Source: Pseudacidobacterium ailaaui
GTDB taxonomy: Bacteria > Acidobacteriota > Terriglobia > Terriglobales > Acidobacteriaceae
Direction of reading: 5' to 3'
Length of the DNA stretch: 64,000 nucleotides
NCBI RefSeq assembly: GCF_000688455.1
Contig: NZ_JIAL01000001.1
Span: forward strand, 1,643,001-1,707,000
Below are positions 54,452 to 60,167 of this stretch, piece by piece. The first letter of the stretch is position 1. Every line of letters begins with the position of its first letter. A program made the translations under genes and the position numbers. The notes under the pieces are model-generated. The model was given only the letters and a program-made list of their open reading frames with translations. It was not told where the DNA came from and made no database searches.

Positions 54452-54712
54452 TTACTCAGTCGCGGCTTCGACGGCCACAAAACGACCAAGGTTTCCGCGG
54501 TCTACGAATTTGACGATGCCGTCAATCTTAGCGAAGAGCGTATCGTCACTGCCGCGGCCCACATTGCGGCCAGGCTTAATGCGTGTTCCGCGCTGGCGGA
54601 CGATGATGGACCCGCCAGTGACGAACTGGCCGCCGAAGGCCTTCACACCAAGCCGCTGCGCATTGGAATCGCGGCCGTTACTGGAGCTTCCACCGCCTTT
54701 TTTATGTGCCAT
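54452..54712 (-). CDS. rpmA: 50S ribosomal protein L27
   Basis: 86 residues with the L27 signature [43 protein letters not shown] and [14 protein letters not shown]. The N-terminus near the peptidyl-transferase centre starts directly at MAHKKG, without the cleaved extension seen in Firmicutes. It follows rplU by 40 bp. Confidence 0.97.
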
Positions 54713-54752: not shown

Positions 54753-55076
54753 CTACGCGGTATAGGTGTTGCCGTCCACCTGAATTTCGTTGATGCGGAC
54801 CTGGGTGAATGCCTGGCGGTGCCCCTGCAGCTTTTTGTACTGCTTCTTCCGTTTGTAGTGGAAGACCAGGACCTTGTCACCACGTCCTTCACCGAGCACC
54901 GTAGCCACCACTTTGGCAGAAGAAGGCTTTGCTACTTGTCCTGCGTCTCCGGAGACGGCCAGTACATCACTGAACTCAATCGCGCCATTTTCGCCCGCAG
55001 CGGTTTTCTCAATCTTCACCACGTCGCCGGGTGCGACACGATATTGCTTACCACCTGTGCGGATGACCGCGTACAT
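54753..55076 (-). CDS. rplU: 50S ribosomal protein L21
   Basis: 107 residues: MYAVIRTGGKQYRVAPGDVV, KIEKTAAGENGAIEF, VLVFHYKRKKQYKKLQGHRQAFTQVRI. GGAGG lies 4 nt before the ATG. The leader is long and structured, with its own promoter just after the preceding gene. Transcribed with rpmA. Confidence 0.97.
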   Translation of the reverse strand: MYAVIRTGGKQYRVAPGDVVKIEKTAAGENGAIEFSDVLAVSGDAGQVAKPSSAKVVATVLGEGRGDKVLVFHYKRKKQYKKLQGHRQAFTQVRINEIQVDGNTYTA

Positions 55077-55218
55077 AAATCCTCCAGCGCCTGGCTACAG
55101 GCGCGCAAACTTATTGAAAAATGGGCAGATACATGCTTGCCTCGCAATCATCTGATGCGTCATCAGGAAGTGCGCAAAGCCTTAGGCGCGCACGAGGCAA
55201 CAGGCAGGACCGCCAAAC
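55077..55218 (-). promoter_or_regulatory. Structured leader of rplU with predicted three-way junction
   Basis: On the minus strand, P1 TTGCCTCG/CGAGGCAA (55200-55193 with 55144-55137) encloses two hairpins: P3 TGCGC-GCC/GGC-GCGCA (about 55192-55171) and P2 CTGATG/CATCAG with a 3-nt loop (55166-55152). Nearer the gene, GCGCCT/AGGCGC (55104-55087) forms a hairpin ending one base before the GGAGG. The layout suggests autoregulation by L21 or L27, as known for other r-protein leaders. The class is not one I can match to a known family. Confidence 0.55.
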
Positions 55219-55224
55219 CAGATT

Positions 55225-55253
55225 AGTTTACTGGTTTCCGCGTCCAAGGTCAA
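55225..55253 (-). promoter_or_regulatory. Sigma70-like promoter of rplU-rpmA
   Basis: On the minus strand, TTGACC (55253-55248) and TAAACT (55230-55225) are 17 bp apart. The -35 begins 2 bp after the stop codon of the upstream gene. Transcription would start near 55218, just ahead of the three-way junction, giving a leader of about 140 nt. Confidence 0.7.
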
Positions 55254-55254
55254 T

Positions 55255-56082
55255 TCAGAACGGCATTCGCGCTGAAAAGATCAGACCGTGGTCGTAGCTG
55301 TGGTAGGCAGAGGTGGCAATCTGCATTCCCGCTCCCAGAGTAAGCCCGACCCGGTGGTGGAGCGGCCAGCGGGACACAATCCCGGGCGTGACAAAGTTCT
55401 GGACCTTTCCGTCATTCGGGCCGCCCTTGAAGAAGGTGGAATTAAATTCCGTCTCCGGCCACCAGTGCGGATTCGCCTTCCATTGCAGCGTGGTGTTCCA
55501 GGCAATGGGGCGACCCAGTTTGTCTGCGTTGGCGACGGGCAGGGTAGCGCCCAGCGTAGATTGCACATCAAAGCGGCCGAAGCCTTTGCCGCCGGCCAGA
55601 GTGGGCGAGATGGTCGCATCGGTGCTTCCATTGCTGTAGCTTCCGGTCGGAATGCTTCCTCCTAGGAAGGCAGTCAAGATGGCATTGTGGGCCTCTTCAT
55701 TGCTTGCGTAAAAGCGGTACTTCATGACAAAGGAAACGTCGCCGAAGCCGTCTTTCGCGGTGGGTGCGTTGTGCTGAATATAAGGAGGCACGTTCAGCAG
55801 CAGTTCGATCCGCCGCGCGGGGATCAGCTCCAGGCCCTTACCACCGCCGTAGTTCCAGGTGTCTGTATGCTTCGGCGTAATCTGACGGTTAAAGTCCGTG
55901 CGGAACTCCTGCTCCAGGCGCGGTGTAACAGTGGCCAGTGGAGTGACCCAGTGAGGTTGCTCGGACTGGGTACGGCTGACCCTCTGCTGCCAGCGGTCAA
56001 CAAACGATTGCTGCGCATTCGCAGAAAACAGGGTGCAGACGGAAAGCAGGACGAGAAAAACTTTCTGGTGGAAGTTTTGCAA
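55255..56082 (-). CDS. Outer-membrane beta-barrel protein (phenol_MetA_deg/transporter-like)
   Basis: 275 residues with a signal peptide (about 1-23, LLSVCTLFSANAQQ). The mature protein is a string of amphipathic beta strands: ATVTPRLEQEFRTDFNRQ, GLELIPARRIELLLNVPPYI, GFGDVSFVMKYRFYA, LTAFLGGSIPTGSY and a C-terminal LIFSARMPF with terminal Phe, as in outer-membrane barrels of the MetA-pathway type. The start is TTG at 56082 with GGGAG 7 nt upstream; the longer frame from 56121 would include that ribosome site. Divergent from the molybdoenzyme operon. Confidence 0.78.
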   Translation of the reverse strand: MQNFHQKVFLVLLSVCTLFSANAQQSFVDRWQQRVSRTQSEQPHWVTPLATVTPRLEQEFRTDFNRQITPKHTDTWNYGGGKGLELIPARRIELLLNVPPYIQHNAPTAKDGFGDVSFVMKYRFYASNEEAHNAILTAFLGGSIPTGSYSNGSTDATISPTLAGGKGFGRFDVQSTLGATLPVANADKLGRPIAWNTTLQWKANPHWWPETEFNSTFFKGGPNDGKVQNFVTPGIVSRWPLHHRVGLTLGAGMQIATSAYHSYDHGLIFSARMPF

Positions 56083-56106
56083 ACTTAATCTCCCGGGAAG
56101 ACTTAA

Positions 56107-56132
56107 AACGATTCTATACAAATTGAATCGTT
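56107..56132. promoter_or_regulatory. Inverted repeat overlapping a -10 element in the divergent region
   Basis: AACGATTC (56107-56114) and GAATCGTT (56125-56132) are perfect 8-bp arms with a 10-bp spacer. On the minus strand the repeat contains TATAGAAT, a likely -10 of the outer-membrane gene. A second perfect palindrome, TCGCTATAGCGA, lies at 56169-56180 toward the Mo-enzyme operon. Both are possible operators for one regulator. Confidence 0.45.
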
Positions 56133-56312: not shown

Positions 56313-56948
56313 ATGTCTCCATCGCACGACTCCGAAGGATCCAGACCCGTATTCGGGAAATTTACCCGGCGTTCGTTTCTCACCCAGCTGGGTGCTGCCG
56401 GACTTGCTGTCACGACGGCGCCGCTGGCCAACGCTGCTCCGGCCGCCCCGCAGGCGGAAGCAGAGACTGCCACGACCATTCCTGGTGCCGTACCTGTCAC
56501 GCTTAAGGTCAATGGGCAGGTGCACAGGCTGATGCTGGAGCCGCGGGTGACGCTGCTGGATGCACTGCGAGAAAATCTCCAGCTCCCTGGCACCAAGAAG
56601 GGATGCGACCATGGCCAGTGCGGTGCCTGTACGGTCCACGTGAATGGACGGCGCGTGAACTCGTGCCTGAGTTTTGCCATCATGCACCAGGAGGATGAAA
56701 TCACCACGGTGGAAGGGCTGGCGCAGAATGGCGAGCTGCATCCGATTCAGGCAGCGTTTATCGAGCACGATGGCTATCAGTGCGGCTACTGTACCTCGGG
56801 GCAGATCATGTCTGCGACGGCCTTGCTGAAGGAGCCTGTCGGCAAGGAAGACAGCGATGTGCGCGAGGCCATGTCCGGCAACATCTGCCGCTGTGGCGCG
56901 TACAACAATATTGTTGCCGCCGTGCAGCAGGTGCGGCGCTCGGCCTGA
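56313..56948 (+). CDS. paoA: Periplasmic aldehyde oxidoreductase 2Fe-2S subunit (PaoA/YagT-like)
   Basis: 211 residues. A Tat signal ([15 protein letters not shown], twin Arg at 19-20, then an Ala-rich region to about 45) exports the folded protein. The first cluster is bound by Cys 98, 103, 106 and 118 ([16 protein letters not shown]), the second by Cys 157, 160, 192 and 194 (QCGYC and CRCG). It passes electrons from the Mo site to FAD in xanthine-oxidase-family enzymes. AAGGAC lies upstream of the ATG. First gene of a four-gene operon. Confidence 0.93.
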
Positions 56949-56962
56949 AAGGAGAAGTGGCG

Positions 56963-57943
56963 ATGCAGAGCTTTGAATATCGTCAGGCAAAATCGCTGGA
57001 CCTGGCCGTCCAGAACGCCGGACAAACAACGCGCTTTATTGCAGGCGGCACGACCCTGGTGGACCTGATGAAGCTCAATGTGGAGAGACCGGCTTCGATC
57101 ATCGACATCCATGGCCTGCCCCTTGACCGTATTGAGACCACGTCTGAAGGCGGGCTGAGGATTGGTGCCTTGGTCCGCAACAGTGACCTTGCCTGGAATG
57201 AGGAGGTAAAGCAGCGGTATCCGGTGCTTTCTGAGGCGCTGCTTTCCGGAGCGTCTCCGCAATTGCGAAATATGGCGACGACCGGCGGCAATCTGTTGCA
57301 ACGGACGCGGTGTTACTACTTCCGTGACACAAATTACAAGTGCAATAAGCGCGAACCCGGCTCGGGTTGTTCCGCCATCGACGGACATCACCGCATTCAT
57401 GCCATTCTGGGCACGAGCGAGCACTGCATTGCAACACATCCGTCTGATATGGCAGTGGCGATGATGGCGCTTGAGGCCACGGTACATACACGCGGGGCCA
57501 AGGGGGAGCGCAACATCGCGCTCAATGATTTTTATCTTGTTCCGGGCACGACACCGGAGAAAGAAAATGTGCTGGAGCCAGGCGAGCTGATTACTGCCGT
57601 TACGCTGCCAAAGCTGCCGCCCGGGACAAAGTCGCATTATCTGAAGCTGCGCGACCGGGCTTCCTATGAGTTTGCGCTGGCTTCAGCGGCAGTTGTCATC
57701 CAGACCCACGGCGGAAAGGTCCAGTTTGTGCGCGTGGCCCTCGGAGGGGTTGGGACGAAACCGTGGCGGTCCAGAGAGGCCGAGCAGGAGCTGCACGGAC
57801 GCGAGGCGAACGAGCGCACTTTTCGCGCTGCGGCAGAAGCGGCGCTGAAACCGGCAAAGCCATTGCGCGACAACGCATTCAAGGTAGAGCTGGCCAAGCG
57901 TGTCCTGGTCCGCGCCTTGCAGACAGCAACCCAAACCGCGTGA
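56963..57943 (+). CDS. paoB: Periplasmic aldehyde oxidoreductase FAD subunit (PaoB/YagS-like)
   Basis: 326 residues of the CO-dehydrogenase medium-subunit type: [14 protein letters not shown] (FAD phosphate loop), [13 protein letters not shown] and a C-terminal CO_deh_flav_C domain. It carries the extra Cys set of PaoB (117, 127, 136, 155 in [20 protein letters not shown] and [10 protein letters not shown]), which in E. coli binds a [4Fe-4S] cluster. It has no signal peptide of its own and would be co-exported with the Tat subunit. AAAGGAG precedes the ATG. 14 bp after paoA. Confidence 0.92.
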
Positions 57944-57950
57944 GGAAAAG

Positions 57951-60167
57951 ATGAGCACATCCATCATCGGAGCAGCAGTCGCCAGGGTGGACGGCAGGCT
58001 GAAGGTCAGCGGAGCGGCGCGCTATGCCGTAGACCATCCACTCGAAAACATGGCGTATGGCGCGGGTGTCTTCAGCACCATTGCGAATGGAAAAATTGTC
58101 CGCATCGACACCTCTGAGGCGGAAACGATGCCCGGGGTGATTGCCATTCTGCATCATGGCAATGCGGACCCCATCTACCGTCCGGCCGGGCAGTTTGAAC
58201 ACAGCCGTGCCAGCGAAGCGCGGCCTCCTTTTGAAGACGACCGTGTTTACTACTATGGCCAATTTGTAGCTGTTGTGGTTGCAAATACGCTTGAGCAGGC
58301 GCAGGACGCGGCTGCGCGCGTGCGGGTGAGCTATGCGGAAGAAAAGCCGCTGGTACGTTTGGAAGACGCGCCCTTAGGAGAACAGGTGGCCAGCTACTCG
58401 CGCGGGAATGCAGAGGGTGCCTTTGCCAGCGCCCCGGTGCAGATTGATGAGACCTACACGACGCCGGCCGAGACCCACAATCCAATGGAGATGCACGGCA
58501 CCATTGCGGTGTGGAATGGCGACAAGGTCACTCTCTATGAAACAACGCAGGGTGTGGTGAACCACCAGCAGGTCATGTCCGAGATGCTGGGCATTCCGCT
58601 GGAAAATATTCATGTCATCTCCCCGTTCTGTGGGTCGGGTTTCGGAGGCAAGCTCTTTCCCTGGCCGCATTCCATGCTGGCGGCGATTGCGGCGCGAAGA
58701 GTAAAGCGTCCGGTAAAGCTGTATGTGCCGCGTGCGATGATGTTCACAACGGTGGGTCATCGCCCCTTCACCAAACAAAGGATGCGTTTGGGGGCAACCA
58801 GAGACGGCAAGCTGCTTTCCATACAGCACGAGGTACTCTCAACCACCTCGAAGGTCGATACATACGTTGAACATTGCACAGCGGCCACGCCCATGCTCTA
58901 TAGCTGCCCGAATGTAAAAGCGGTGCAGCATGTGGTGCCGTTGCATATTGGTACGCCCACGCCCATGCGTGGTCCCGGCACAGTTCCCGGGCTGTTTCCA
59001 CTGGAGTCAGCGATGGACGAGCTTGCCATCAAGCTGGAGATGGACCCCCTGGAGCTGCGCCTGCGCAATTATGCGGAGAAAGACGAAAGCCAGGACCTGC
59101 CATTTTCCGGTAAGCACTTGCGCGAGGCGTATCAGGCGGGAGCAGAGCGCTTTGGATGGAGCAAACGCAATCCGAAAGTCGGTTCGATGCGCAACGGCAA
59201 TCTGGTACTGGGATGGGGCATGGCCACGGCCACGTGGCATGCGGGCCGCGGCGGAGCGACCGTGCGCGTCCGCCTGAATGCAGACGGCACCGCACGCGCT
59301 TCCAGTGCGACCCAGGACATCGGGACGGGGACCTATACGGTCATTGCCCAAGCGGTTGCGGACAAGACAGGAATCCCTCTGGACAAGATCGAAGTCGTAC
59401 TGGGCGACAGTTCGCTTCCTCCCGGACCCATGTCTGGTGGCTCTACGGCAACGGCCTCGGTGATGCCTGCTGTGGCGGGCGCAACAAGCAATGCCGTCAA
59501 CACGCTCATTCAGATAGCGCAGCGCACACCGGGCTCACCCTTTTATGTAAAGGAAACGCCGGGCGGCGATCCTCCTGCTCTGAAGATGACCCGAGGGTAT
59601 ATCCATGCAGCGGACAAAGCGCCTGACAGTGGCGTGCCCTTCCATGAAATTCTGGCCATGCGCAGACTGAGCGGGATTGACGGCGAAGCCAGGACGGGGC
59701 CTTCTGAAGAGATGCGCAAATTTTCCGGCCACAGTTTTGGCTCGCATTTCTGTGAAGTGACCTGGGACCCTGGTATTGCGCGTCTACGCGTTTCCCGCTG
59801 GGTGACGGTGATGGACGCCGGCCGCATCATCAATCAGAAGACGGCCAGAAACCAGATCCTGGGGGGCGTGGTGATGGGTATCGGTATGGCGCTGTTTGAA
59901 GAGACGTTTTATGATCCGCGCAACGGGAAGCCGCTCAATAACAACTTTGCCGACTATCTGGTTGCCACCAACGCTGATGTTCCGCAAATGGAGTGCATCT
60001 TCGTCGAATATCCCGATCTGAATCTCAATGAATACGGTGCACGCGGCGTGGGTGAGATCGGTTTGGCGGGCGTGGCTTCTGCGCTGACCATGGCTGTCTA
60101 TCATGCCACAGGGGTCCGTGTGCGCAATCTGCCGGTCCGGATTGAGGACCTGCTCGAACATGCGTAG
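57951..60167 (+). CDS. paoC: Periplasmic aldehyde oxidoreductase molybdenum subunit (PaoC/YagR-like)
   Basis: 738 residues of the xanthine-oxidase large subunit. Ald_Xan_dh_C domain (RVDGRLKVSGAARYAVDH), Mo-cofactor segments SPFCGSGFGGKLFPWPH, TPMRGPGTVPGLFPLESAMDEL and ATQDIGTGTYTV, and the catalytic Glu in RGVGEIGLAG near the C-terminus. It oxidises aldehydes to acids, with molybdopterin cytosine dinucleotide expected by analogy with PaoC. No own export signal. The ATG at 57951 follows GAGGAAAAG and starts 7 bp after paoB ends. Confidence 0.93.
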   Translation: MSTSIIGAAVARVDGRLKVSGAARYAVDHPLENMAYGAGVFSTIANGKIVRIDTSEAETMPGVIAILHHGNADPIYRPAGQFEHSRASEARPPFEDDRVYYYGQFVAVVVANTLEQAQDAAARVRVSYAEEKPLVRLEDAPLGEQVASYSRGNAEGAFASAPVQIDETYTTPAETHNPMEMHGTIAVWNGDKVTLYETTQGVVNHQQVMSEMLGIPLENIHVISPFCGSGFGGKLFPWPHSMLAAIAARRVKRPVKLYVPRAMMFTTVGHRPFTKQRMRLGATRDGKLLSIQHEVLSTTSKVDTYVEHCTAATPMLYSCPNVKAVQHVVPLHIGTPTPMRGPGTVPGLFPLESAMDELAIKLEMDPLELRLRNYAEKDESQDLPFSGKHLREAYQAGAERFGWSKRNPKVGSMRNGNLVLGWGMATATWHAGRGGATVRVRLNADGTARASSATQDIGTGTYTVIAQAVADKTGIPLDKIEVVLGDSSLPPGPMSGGSTATASVMPAVAGATSNAVNTLIQIAQRTPGSPFYVKETPGGDPPALKMTRGYIHAADKAPDSGVPFHEILAMRRLSGIDGEARTGPSEEMRKFSGHSFGSHFCEVTWDPGIARLRVSRWVTVMDAGRIINQKTARNQILGGVVMGIGMALFEETFYDPRNGKPLNNNFADYLVATNADVPQMECIFVEYPDLNLNEYGARGVGEIGLAGVASALTMAVYHATGVRVRNLPVRIEDLLEHA

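Follow-up and report, generated by a model that had tools for sequence, protein, structure and literature searches.

A structured RNA element of about 96 nt precedes rplU, the gene for ribosomal protein L21, on the minus strand of the window (the whole 64,000-nucleotide stretch of Pseudacidobacterium ailaaui DNA analyzed here). We favor, with moderate confidence, its interpretation as a ribosomal-protein leader that acts in cis and belongs to no class listed in Rfam, present in the Acidobacteriota family to which the window belongs, through which L21 (or L27) would repress its own synthesis. Ribosomal-protein leaders are a main source of natural RNA–protein recognition sites and appear to have arisen independently in different phyla. 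If our interpretation is correct, an Acidobacteriota L21 leader that is unlike the Firmicutes one would show quick turnover of the site while the regulated gene stays, with replacement by other architectures inside one family as part of that turnover; it would also provide a defined point at which control of ribosome production can be tested in the Acidobacteriota, in which, to our knowledge, little gene regulation has been studied.

Results

Architecture of the element upstream of rplU

In the window, rplU (TIGR00061, PF00829) lies at 54753–55076 and rpmA, encoding ribosomal protein L27 (TIGR00062, PF01016), at 54452–54712; the two adjoining genes are both on the minus strand, are separated by 40 nt and presumably form one operon. 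A terminator-like hairpin with a T run is found between them (54758–54741, minus strand) and might uncouple expression of L27 from that of L21; three terminator-like sites were found in the stretch, against 2.6 expected.

The leader element itself extends from 55218 to 55123. It belongs to a group of leaders termed class A (GUUUGGCG ... UGCCC) and is matched by covariance model R1 with 57.5 bits, the window's own sequence being among the 28 used to build that model; it is the sole match in its genome. The most conserved part is an outer stem, P1 (GGCG..YGCC), which encloses a second stem, P2, and was absent from the sequence-only reading of this DNA that preceded our analysis. P1 appears in both the minimum-energy fold and the comparative model, with GGCGGU (55209–55214) as its 5′ strand and AU-C-UGCC (55124–55130) as its 3′ strand, the two descriptions differing at C55128. 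This base is paired in the window's fold, where 55214–55210 pair with 55128–55124 (GGCGG with CUGCC), and is left bulged in the comparative model, where 55211 pairs with 55127 and 55210–55209 pair with 55129–55130. Relatives mostly have A as the fifth base of P1, with the C opposite bulged; in the 28 aligned sequences the fourth pair is G-C in 17, G-U in eight, A-U in one and something else in two.

Inside P1, the alignment of 28 class-A leaders reveals a conserved CUGCCUGU (55200–55207), the last base of which is the outermost base of an 8-bp stem between UUGCCUCG (55200–55193) and CGAGGCAA (55144–55137). The P2 strands UGCCUCG (55193–55199) and CGAGGCA (55138–55144) retain their complementarity between species, and in the minimum-energy fold the 8-bp stem loses its innermost pair to the first of the inner hairpins, which gains a pair between 55193 and 55170. 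Two inner hairpins fold within the stem: a P3-like hairpin at 55171–55192, which has a UUU bulge on its 3′ side (55178–55176), and CUGAUGACGCAUCAG at 55152–55166, which is not general in class A. A second conserved sequence in the class-A alignment, AAGCAUGUAUC (55128–55138), lies between P2 and P1 and overlaps both with its ends; Terracidiphilus-like members carry GGAAGUWUC in its place. Downstream of the element, the hairpin GCGCCUG-UAGC-CAGGCGC (55087–55104) ends one base before the Shine–Dalgarno sequence GGAGG (55081–55085), and a hairpin ending ≤2 nt from the Shine–Dalgarno is present in 72 of 78 class-A leaders. The 8-bp stem with its two inner hairpins and the further hairpin beside the Shine–Dalgarno had all been described in the sequence-only reading, which likewise placed a promoter just ahead of the compact structure; each of these features is borne out by the sequence and folds of the minus strand.

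That promoter consists of a −35 box, TTGACC (55248–55253), and a −10 box, TAAACT (55225–55230), separated by a 17-nt spacer and scoring 9 of 12. Alone it is unimpressive, with 0.7 such promoters expected from shuffled sequences for the one found, yet it is kept in relatives: a match of at least 5/6 to TTGACC is present at −35 in 75/81 class-A and 55/57 class-B leaders (class B is described below). Among distances of 4 to 8 nt tried, with 12 later loci added to the earlier regions, the element starts exactly 6 nt past the −10 box in 78/80 class-A and 55/57 class-B leaders, and class membership demanded some −10 box but not any given spacing. Since the spacing to the −10 box is fixed, the rplU mRNA very probably begins with the element, with a predicted transcription start at about 55219–55218; judged from sequence, the element is probably the 5′ end of the message.

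Folding energy was modest. The element (55218–55123) has a folding z of −2.40, with 5/200 shuffles as stable, and the 144-nt leader one of −1.19 (28/200 shuffles as stable); the full 177-nt region folded on the other strand scores below both (z = −3.15), and 9 of the 12 elements folded have z above −2. As stability alone is modest, the case rests on comparison, not on folding energy. No terminator-like site was found on either strand of 55077–55253.

Related leaders take three architectures

Of 100 genomes of the family searched for L21, 89 yielded the gene; to these were added loci from a scan of named genomes, comprising Acidobacterium, Acidipila, Edaphobacter, Terracidiphilus, Silvibacterium, Terriglobus, Granulicella and Sulfotelmatobacter, alongside other MAGs. 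Removal of 22 duplicates and two sequences that were too short left 145 distinct upstream regions, which, assigned to classes by motif plus a TA...T box, comprise 69 of class A (here including class C), 57 of class B and 19 unclassified, several of the last carrying visible variants. In class-A leaders the first strand of P1 is followed by the conserved CUGCCYGU, by P2 with an interior that varies, by AAGCAUGUAUC (in some a variant of it) and again by P1; what is retained is P1, P2 and the flanks UGCCYGU and AAGCAUGUAUC (or variants), and in many relatives P2 encloses a single bulged hairpin, not two. A pattern scan identified 34/85 class-A regions with the inner hairpin GYUC-RC...GY-UY-GAGC, which has a bulge of two bases; the pairs beside the bulge are GC/GC in 19, AC/GU in 11 and others in four, a split for which one or two evolutionary events may account in regions that the GYUC-RC pattern itself selected. 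The window does not fit this pattern; its hairpin 1, comparable but with a UUU bulge, may be the equivalent of the GYUC-RC hairpin. In class B, GUUUGC(C)UGU pairs with ACAGCAAGC to close a three-way junction, and class C has P1 plus additional stems; one genus (g9) contains both class A and class C. One contig (L163), filed as a Rhodanobacteraceae MAG, encodes an L21 that is 64% identical to that of the window and has a leader starting with GUUCGGCAG; it looks mis-binned.

Related elements stand before rplU in the window's family, and the proposal passes the check, named in the sequence-only reading, of conservation upstream of rplU. The three-way junction that the sequence-only reading had proposed is the rule in class B, but it is not the conserved core of class A, to which the window belongs.

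The bases that follow the rplU GGAGG (55085–55077 in the window, and in relatives) also vary by class. The sequence AGGCA is found there in 42/57 class-B, 0/69 class-A and 5/19 unclassified regions, and is retained even where GGAGG is lost (L042, L063, L072); before rpmA it occurs in 0/13 class-B and 10/63 class-A cases. Pairing of the 5′ element with the Shine–Dalgarno, which these counts had suggested, is not supported, as the duplex test showed no species-specific preference (permutation p 0.87 for class A and 0.79 for class B), so the AGGCA pattern is only a between-class difference. Shine–Dalgarno accessibility was uninformative, the mean unpaired value being 0.37 against 0.28 for shuffled leaders in class A and 0.35 against 0.30 in class B.

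Compensatory changes in P2 and the Shine–Dalgarno-proximal hairpin

The strand windows used for P2 were set by flanking conserved sequence, not by structure, and 41 class-A leaders of 157 regions fit them. In these leaders native pairing of the strands gives −10.6 kcal/mol compared with −7.57 kcal/mol for pairing with partners from other species (0/10,000 permutations), and the result persists among 30 representatives with <80% identity (−9.92 versus −6.76, 0/10,000 permutations), such thinning to representatives being the sole way in which relatedness is taken into account in the shuffles and permutations. Inner windows adjacent to P2 show only a slight difference (p about 0.02). Pairing of P2 in a fixed register is 71% versus 62% (0/2,000).

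In the alignment of 28 class-A sequences, from which six two-hairpin relatives of 34 were omitted, 84.0% of cells are paired against 36–52% in slid registers, and 21 cells are changed on both sides compared with 11.8 in shuffles (2/500). The number of pairs changed on both sides (129/500 shuffles as high) and of further pair types (212/500 as high) shows no excess in this alignment. For class B, with two of 32 sequences omitted, the corresponding values are 88.8% paired versus 37–46% in slid registers and 16 both-side changes versus 3.6 (0/500); covariation in class C is not significant. The strands of the Shine–Dalgarno-proximal hairpin covary in class A (52 representatives, 0/10,000 permutations) and are unsupported in class B, where 2,943/10,000 permutations were as good. 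A fixed-register count on the rplU tree is weak, with nine double compensations versus 0–7 in slid registers, and 57 breaks. The sequence-only reading had named compensatory changes in relatives as a check on its proposal, and P2 passes it at 0/10,000 permutations: on this comparison, P2 and the class-A Shine–Dalgarno-proximal hairpin are kept by compensatory change, and covarying secondary structure is found in P2 of classes A and B and in that hairpin.

Variation in P1 is too slight, especially in class B, for its pairing to be proven in this way. RNAalifold, applied to the class-A alignment, returned neither P1 nor P2 but a short 5′ hairpin of GGCG and a nearby UGCC; P1 thus has a competitor, in which columns 5–8 of alignment A1 pair with columns 14–17 (55214–55211 with 55206–55203 in the window) to the exclusion of P1. 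This GGCG/near-UGCC alternative, modeled from the alignment, is a possible switch.

Matches fall in one family and, at the loci examined, before one gene

Covariance models R1, R2 and R3 match 38, 76 and 7 of 300 family genomes, respectively, with no genome common to their match lists and a total of 121/300, which is a lower bound because the search filters were strict. Each genome has one match in 38/38 (R1), 75/76 (R2) and 7/7 (R3) cases, or 120/121 overall, the exception (G268, 7% contamination) having two R2 matches. Searched against samples of 396 genomes from the phylum, R1 gave six matches and R2 three, all inside the window's family and none outside it. The loci examined, a fetched subset of 67 drawn from the matches in the 121 genomes, place the element upstream of rplU, on the same strand and within about 200 nt, in 30/30 (R1), 30/30 (R2) and 7/7 (R3) instances. 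Upstream sequences of 12 of the 30 R1 loci were new to the analysis, many of the other R1 loci, and many R2 and R3 matches, having been in the models themselves. A structured element thus stands consistently before one ribosomal-protein operon (67/67 loci).

Comparison with known RNAs

No Rfam 15 family matches the leader or its homologues. Neither the window nor, at E ≤ 1, the interval 55000–55300 matches the L21 leader of that database (RF00559, L21_leader), and the same holds for 20 homologous loci at the gathering score and 12 at E ≤ 1 (29 distinct loci, three being in both sets); the weak Rfam matches that did occur, one in the window region and two among the 12 loci, all lie outside the leaders. 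The sequence-only reading could not match the shape to a described class, and no Rfam family matches it here, the Firmicutes L21 leader included. RF00559 resembles the present element in its position in the 5′ UTR upstream of the L21 gene. It is, however, a predicted cis-regulatory leader reported from Firmicutes and Thermotogales (PMC3766115, in part), whereas the nearest named relatives of the present element are Acidobacteriota. Known ribosomal-protein leaders have a strict link to one ribosomal-protein gene (PMC3766115, in part), and Eckert and Weinberg 2020 (PMC7247131) based their 20 leader candidates on evidence like that used here, namely conserved structure linked to a single ribosomal-protein operon. 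Term searches of the main text of PMC7247131 found no L21, L27 or Acidobacteria, and rplU only in a reference, and a term search of the main text of PMC11109978 found no mention of an acidobacterial L21 leader; none appeared among the open-access papers listed by literature searches. In a Shewanella study, rplU is among the predicted leaders (PMC2659441, in part). The RNAs Acido-1 (RF01686) and Acido-Lenti-1 (RF01687) are also structured RNAs from Acidobacteria, but are marked as not cis-regulatory (PMC2864571, in part), and have no Rfam match to the present leader. Escherichia coli has the identical two genes, rplU-rpmA, in identical order, and there the pair is reported as unresponsive to raised synthesis of its products (PMC10931766, in part). 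By sequence comparison, the leader most likely forms a new class among ribosomal-protein leaders, themselves a known kind of element, and is not a member of RF00559.

Discussion

Translational self-repression is the likeliest mechanism because the element is tied to one ribosomal-protein gene, has conserved unpaired segments, lacks a terminator and is followed by a Shine–Dalgarno sequence with a hairpin that covaries in class A. Free L21 (or, less likely, L27) would bind the folded element, the likely contact site being the conserved strands CUGCCYGU and AAGCAUGUAUC together with the bulged inner hairpin, and binding would lower ribosome loading at the Shine–Dalgarno about 40 nt downstream, beside the covarying hairpin. 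New 23S rRNA would take up L21, leaving the leader free and allowing the genes to be translated. The ligand, its binding and the direction of control are all proposals of this model; counting against it are the reported unresponsiveness of the E. coli rplU-rpmA pair and the failure to find a convincing likeness to E. coli 23S helix 46. The absence of a terminator-like site from the leader favors translational control over attenuation, and an attenuator was rejected on the lack of an intrinsic terminator.

A further, tentative possibility, which we rate as somewhat doubtful, is that one old L21 leader has taken on three or more architectures with its start locked at +1 of the same promoter, namely an extended rod or junction (A), a three-way junction (B) and a multi-stem junction (C), and that it may act as a switch in which the first bases change partners. 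The switch in class A would pair GGCG either with the UGCC close by or with the distant YGCC, and that in class B would pair GUUUGC with GCAAGC, or UUGCCU with the AGGCA of the Shine–Dalgarno.

The structure might instead be a constitutive 5′ UTR element that protects the mRNA or gives steady, strong translation while sensing nothing. Stabilizing stems at 5′ termini begin right at the transcription start, and here too the structure starts a few bases from the predicted start with near-invariant spacing, the interiors differ widely, three architectures occur at one place, and the hairpin beside the Shine–Dalgarno may merely keep that region open. A plain stabilizer, however, needs no conserved unpaired sequence, and CUGCCYGU, AAGCAUGUAUC and the UY bulge are widely conserved; moreover, all 67 loci examined have the element before rplU and 120/121 of the genomes matched have a single match, and we consider this explanation rather unlikely. 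Less probable still is that the leader responds to some factor other than L21 or L27, be it another protein, a metabolite or antisense RNA. Unpaired segments as highly conserved as these would be compatible with any ligand, and no mimicry of the L21 region of E. coli 23S rRNA was found, but riboswitch classes usually spread to several genes, and this element precedes rplU in all 67 loci. The search for mimicry covered the motif halves in E. coli 23S rRNA, where L21 binds what we take to be the helix around 1195–1250 (helix 46), and yielded no convincing likeness to that helix; an apparent one at ~1195–1250 (CGUUCUG, GAGGCA..GUAUC) failed against the Rfam consensus pairing, since that consensus lacks GUAUC and has most of the letters in common within base pairs.

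It could also be argued that only the promoter and the initially transcribed GUUUGG (at +1) are conserved, the structure being incidental, as GUUUGG and its spacing rank with the best-conserved features. Against this, the stems far downstream covary and the 3′ strand of P1 is conserved about 90 nt away. A genome-wide promoter motif was rejected, the −10 box plus GUUUGGC not being enriched in the genome (73 and 62 matches on the two strands versus 81 and 67 for the reversed control, ≤1 mismatch). We regard the promoter explanation as very improbable, and improbable in the extreme is an upstream open reading frame encoding a leader peptide from the AUG within AAGCAUGUAUCYGCC. In the window this AUG opens a seven-codon frame, MYLPIFQ (55134–55111, minus strand), but just 16 of the 157 upstream regions have it, and these are divided among the three frames relative to rplU (6, 4 and 6), on which grounds the upstream reading frame was rejected.

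The surroundings of the leader and its operon contain other genes. A 288-amino-acid open reading frame lies directly upstream on the same strand (55255–56121), its stop abutting the −35 box; at E 0.001 it matches nothing in Pfam or NCBIfam. On the plus strand, 56313–60167 holds an apparent molybdenum hydroxylase cluster, in which the 2Fe-2S subunit was recognized by Pfam and the two larger open reading frames that follow it were named by eye only.
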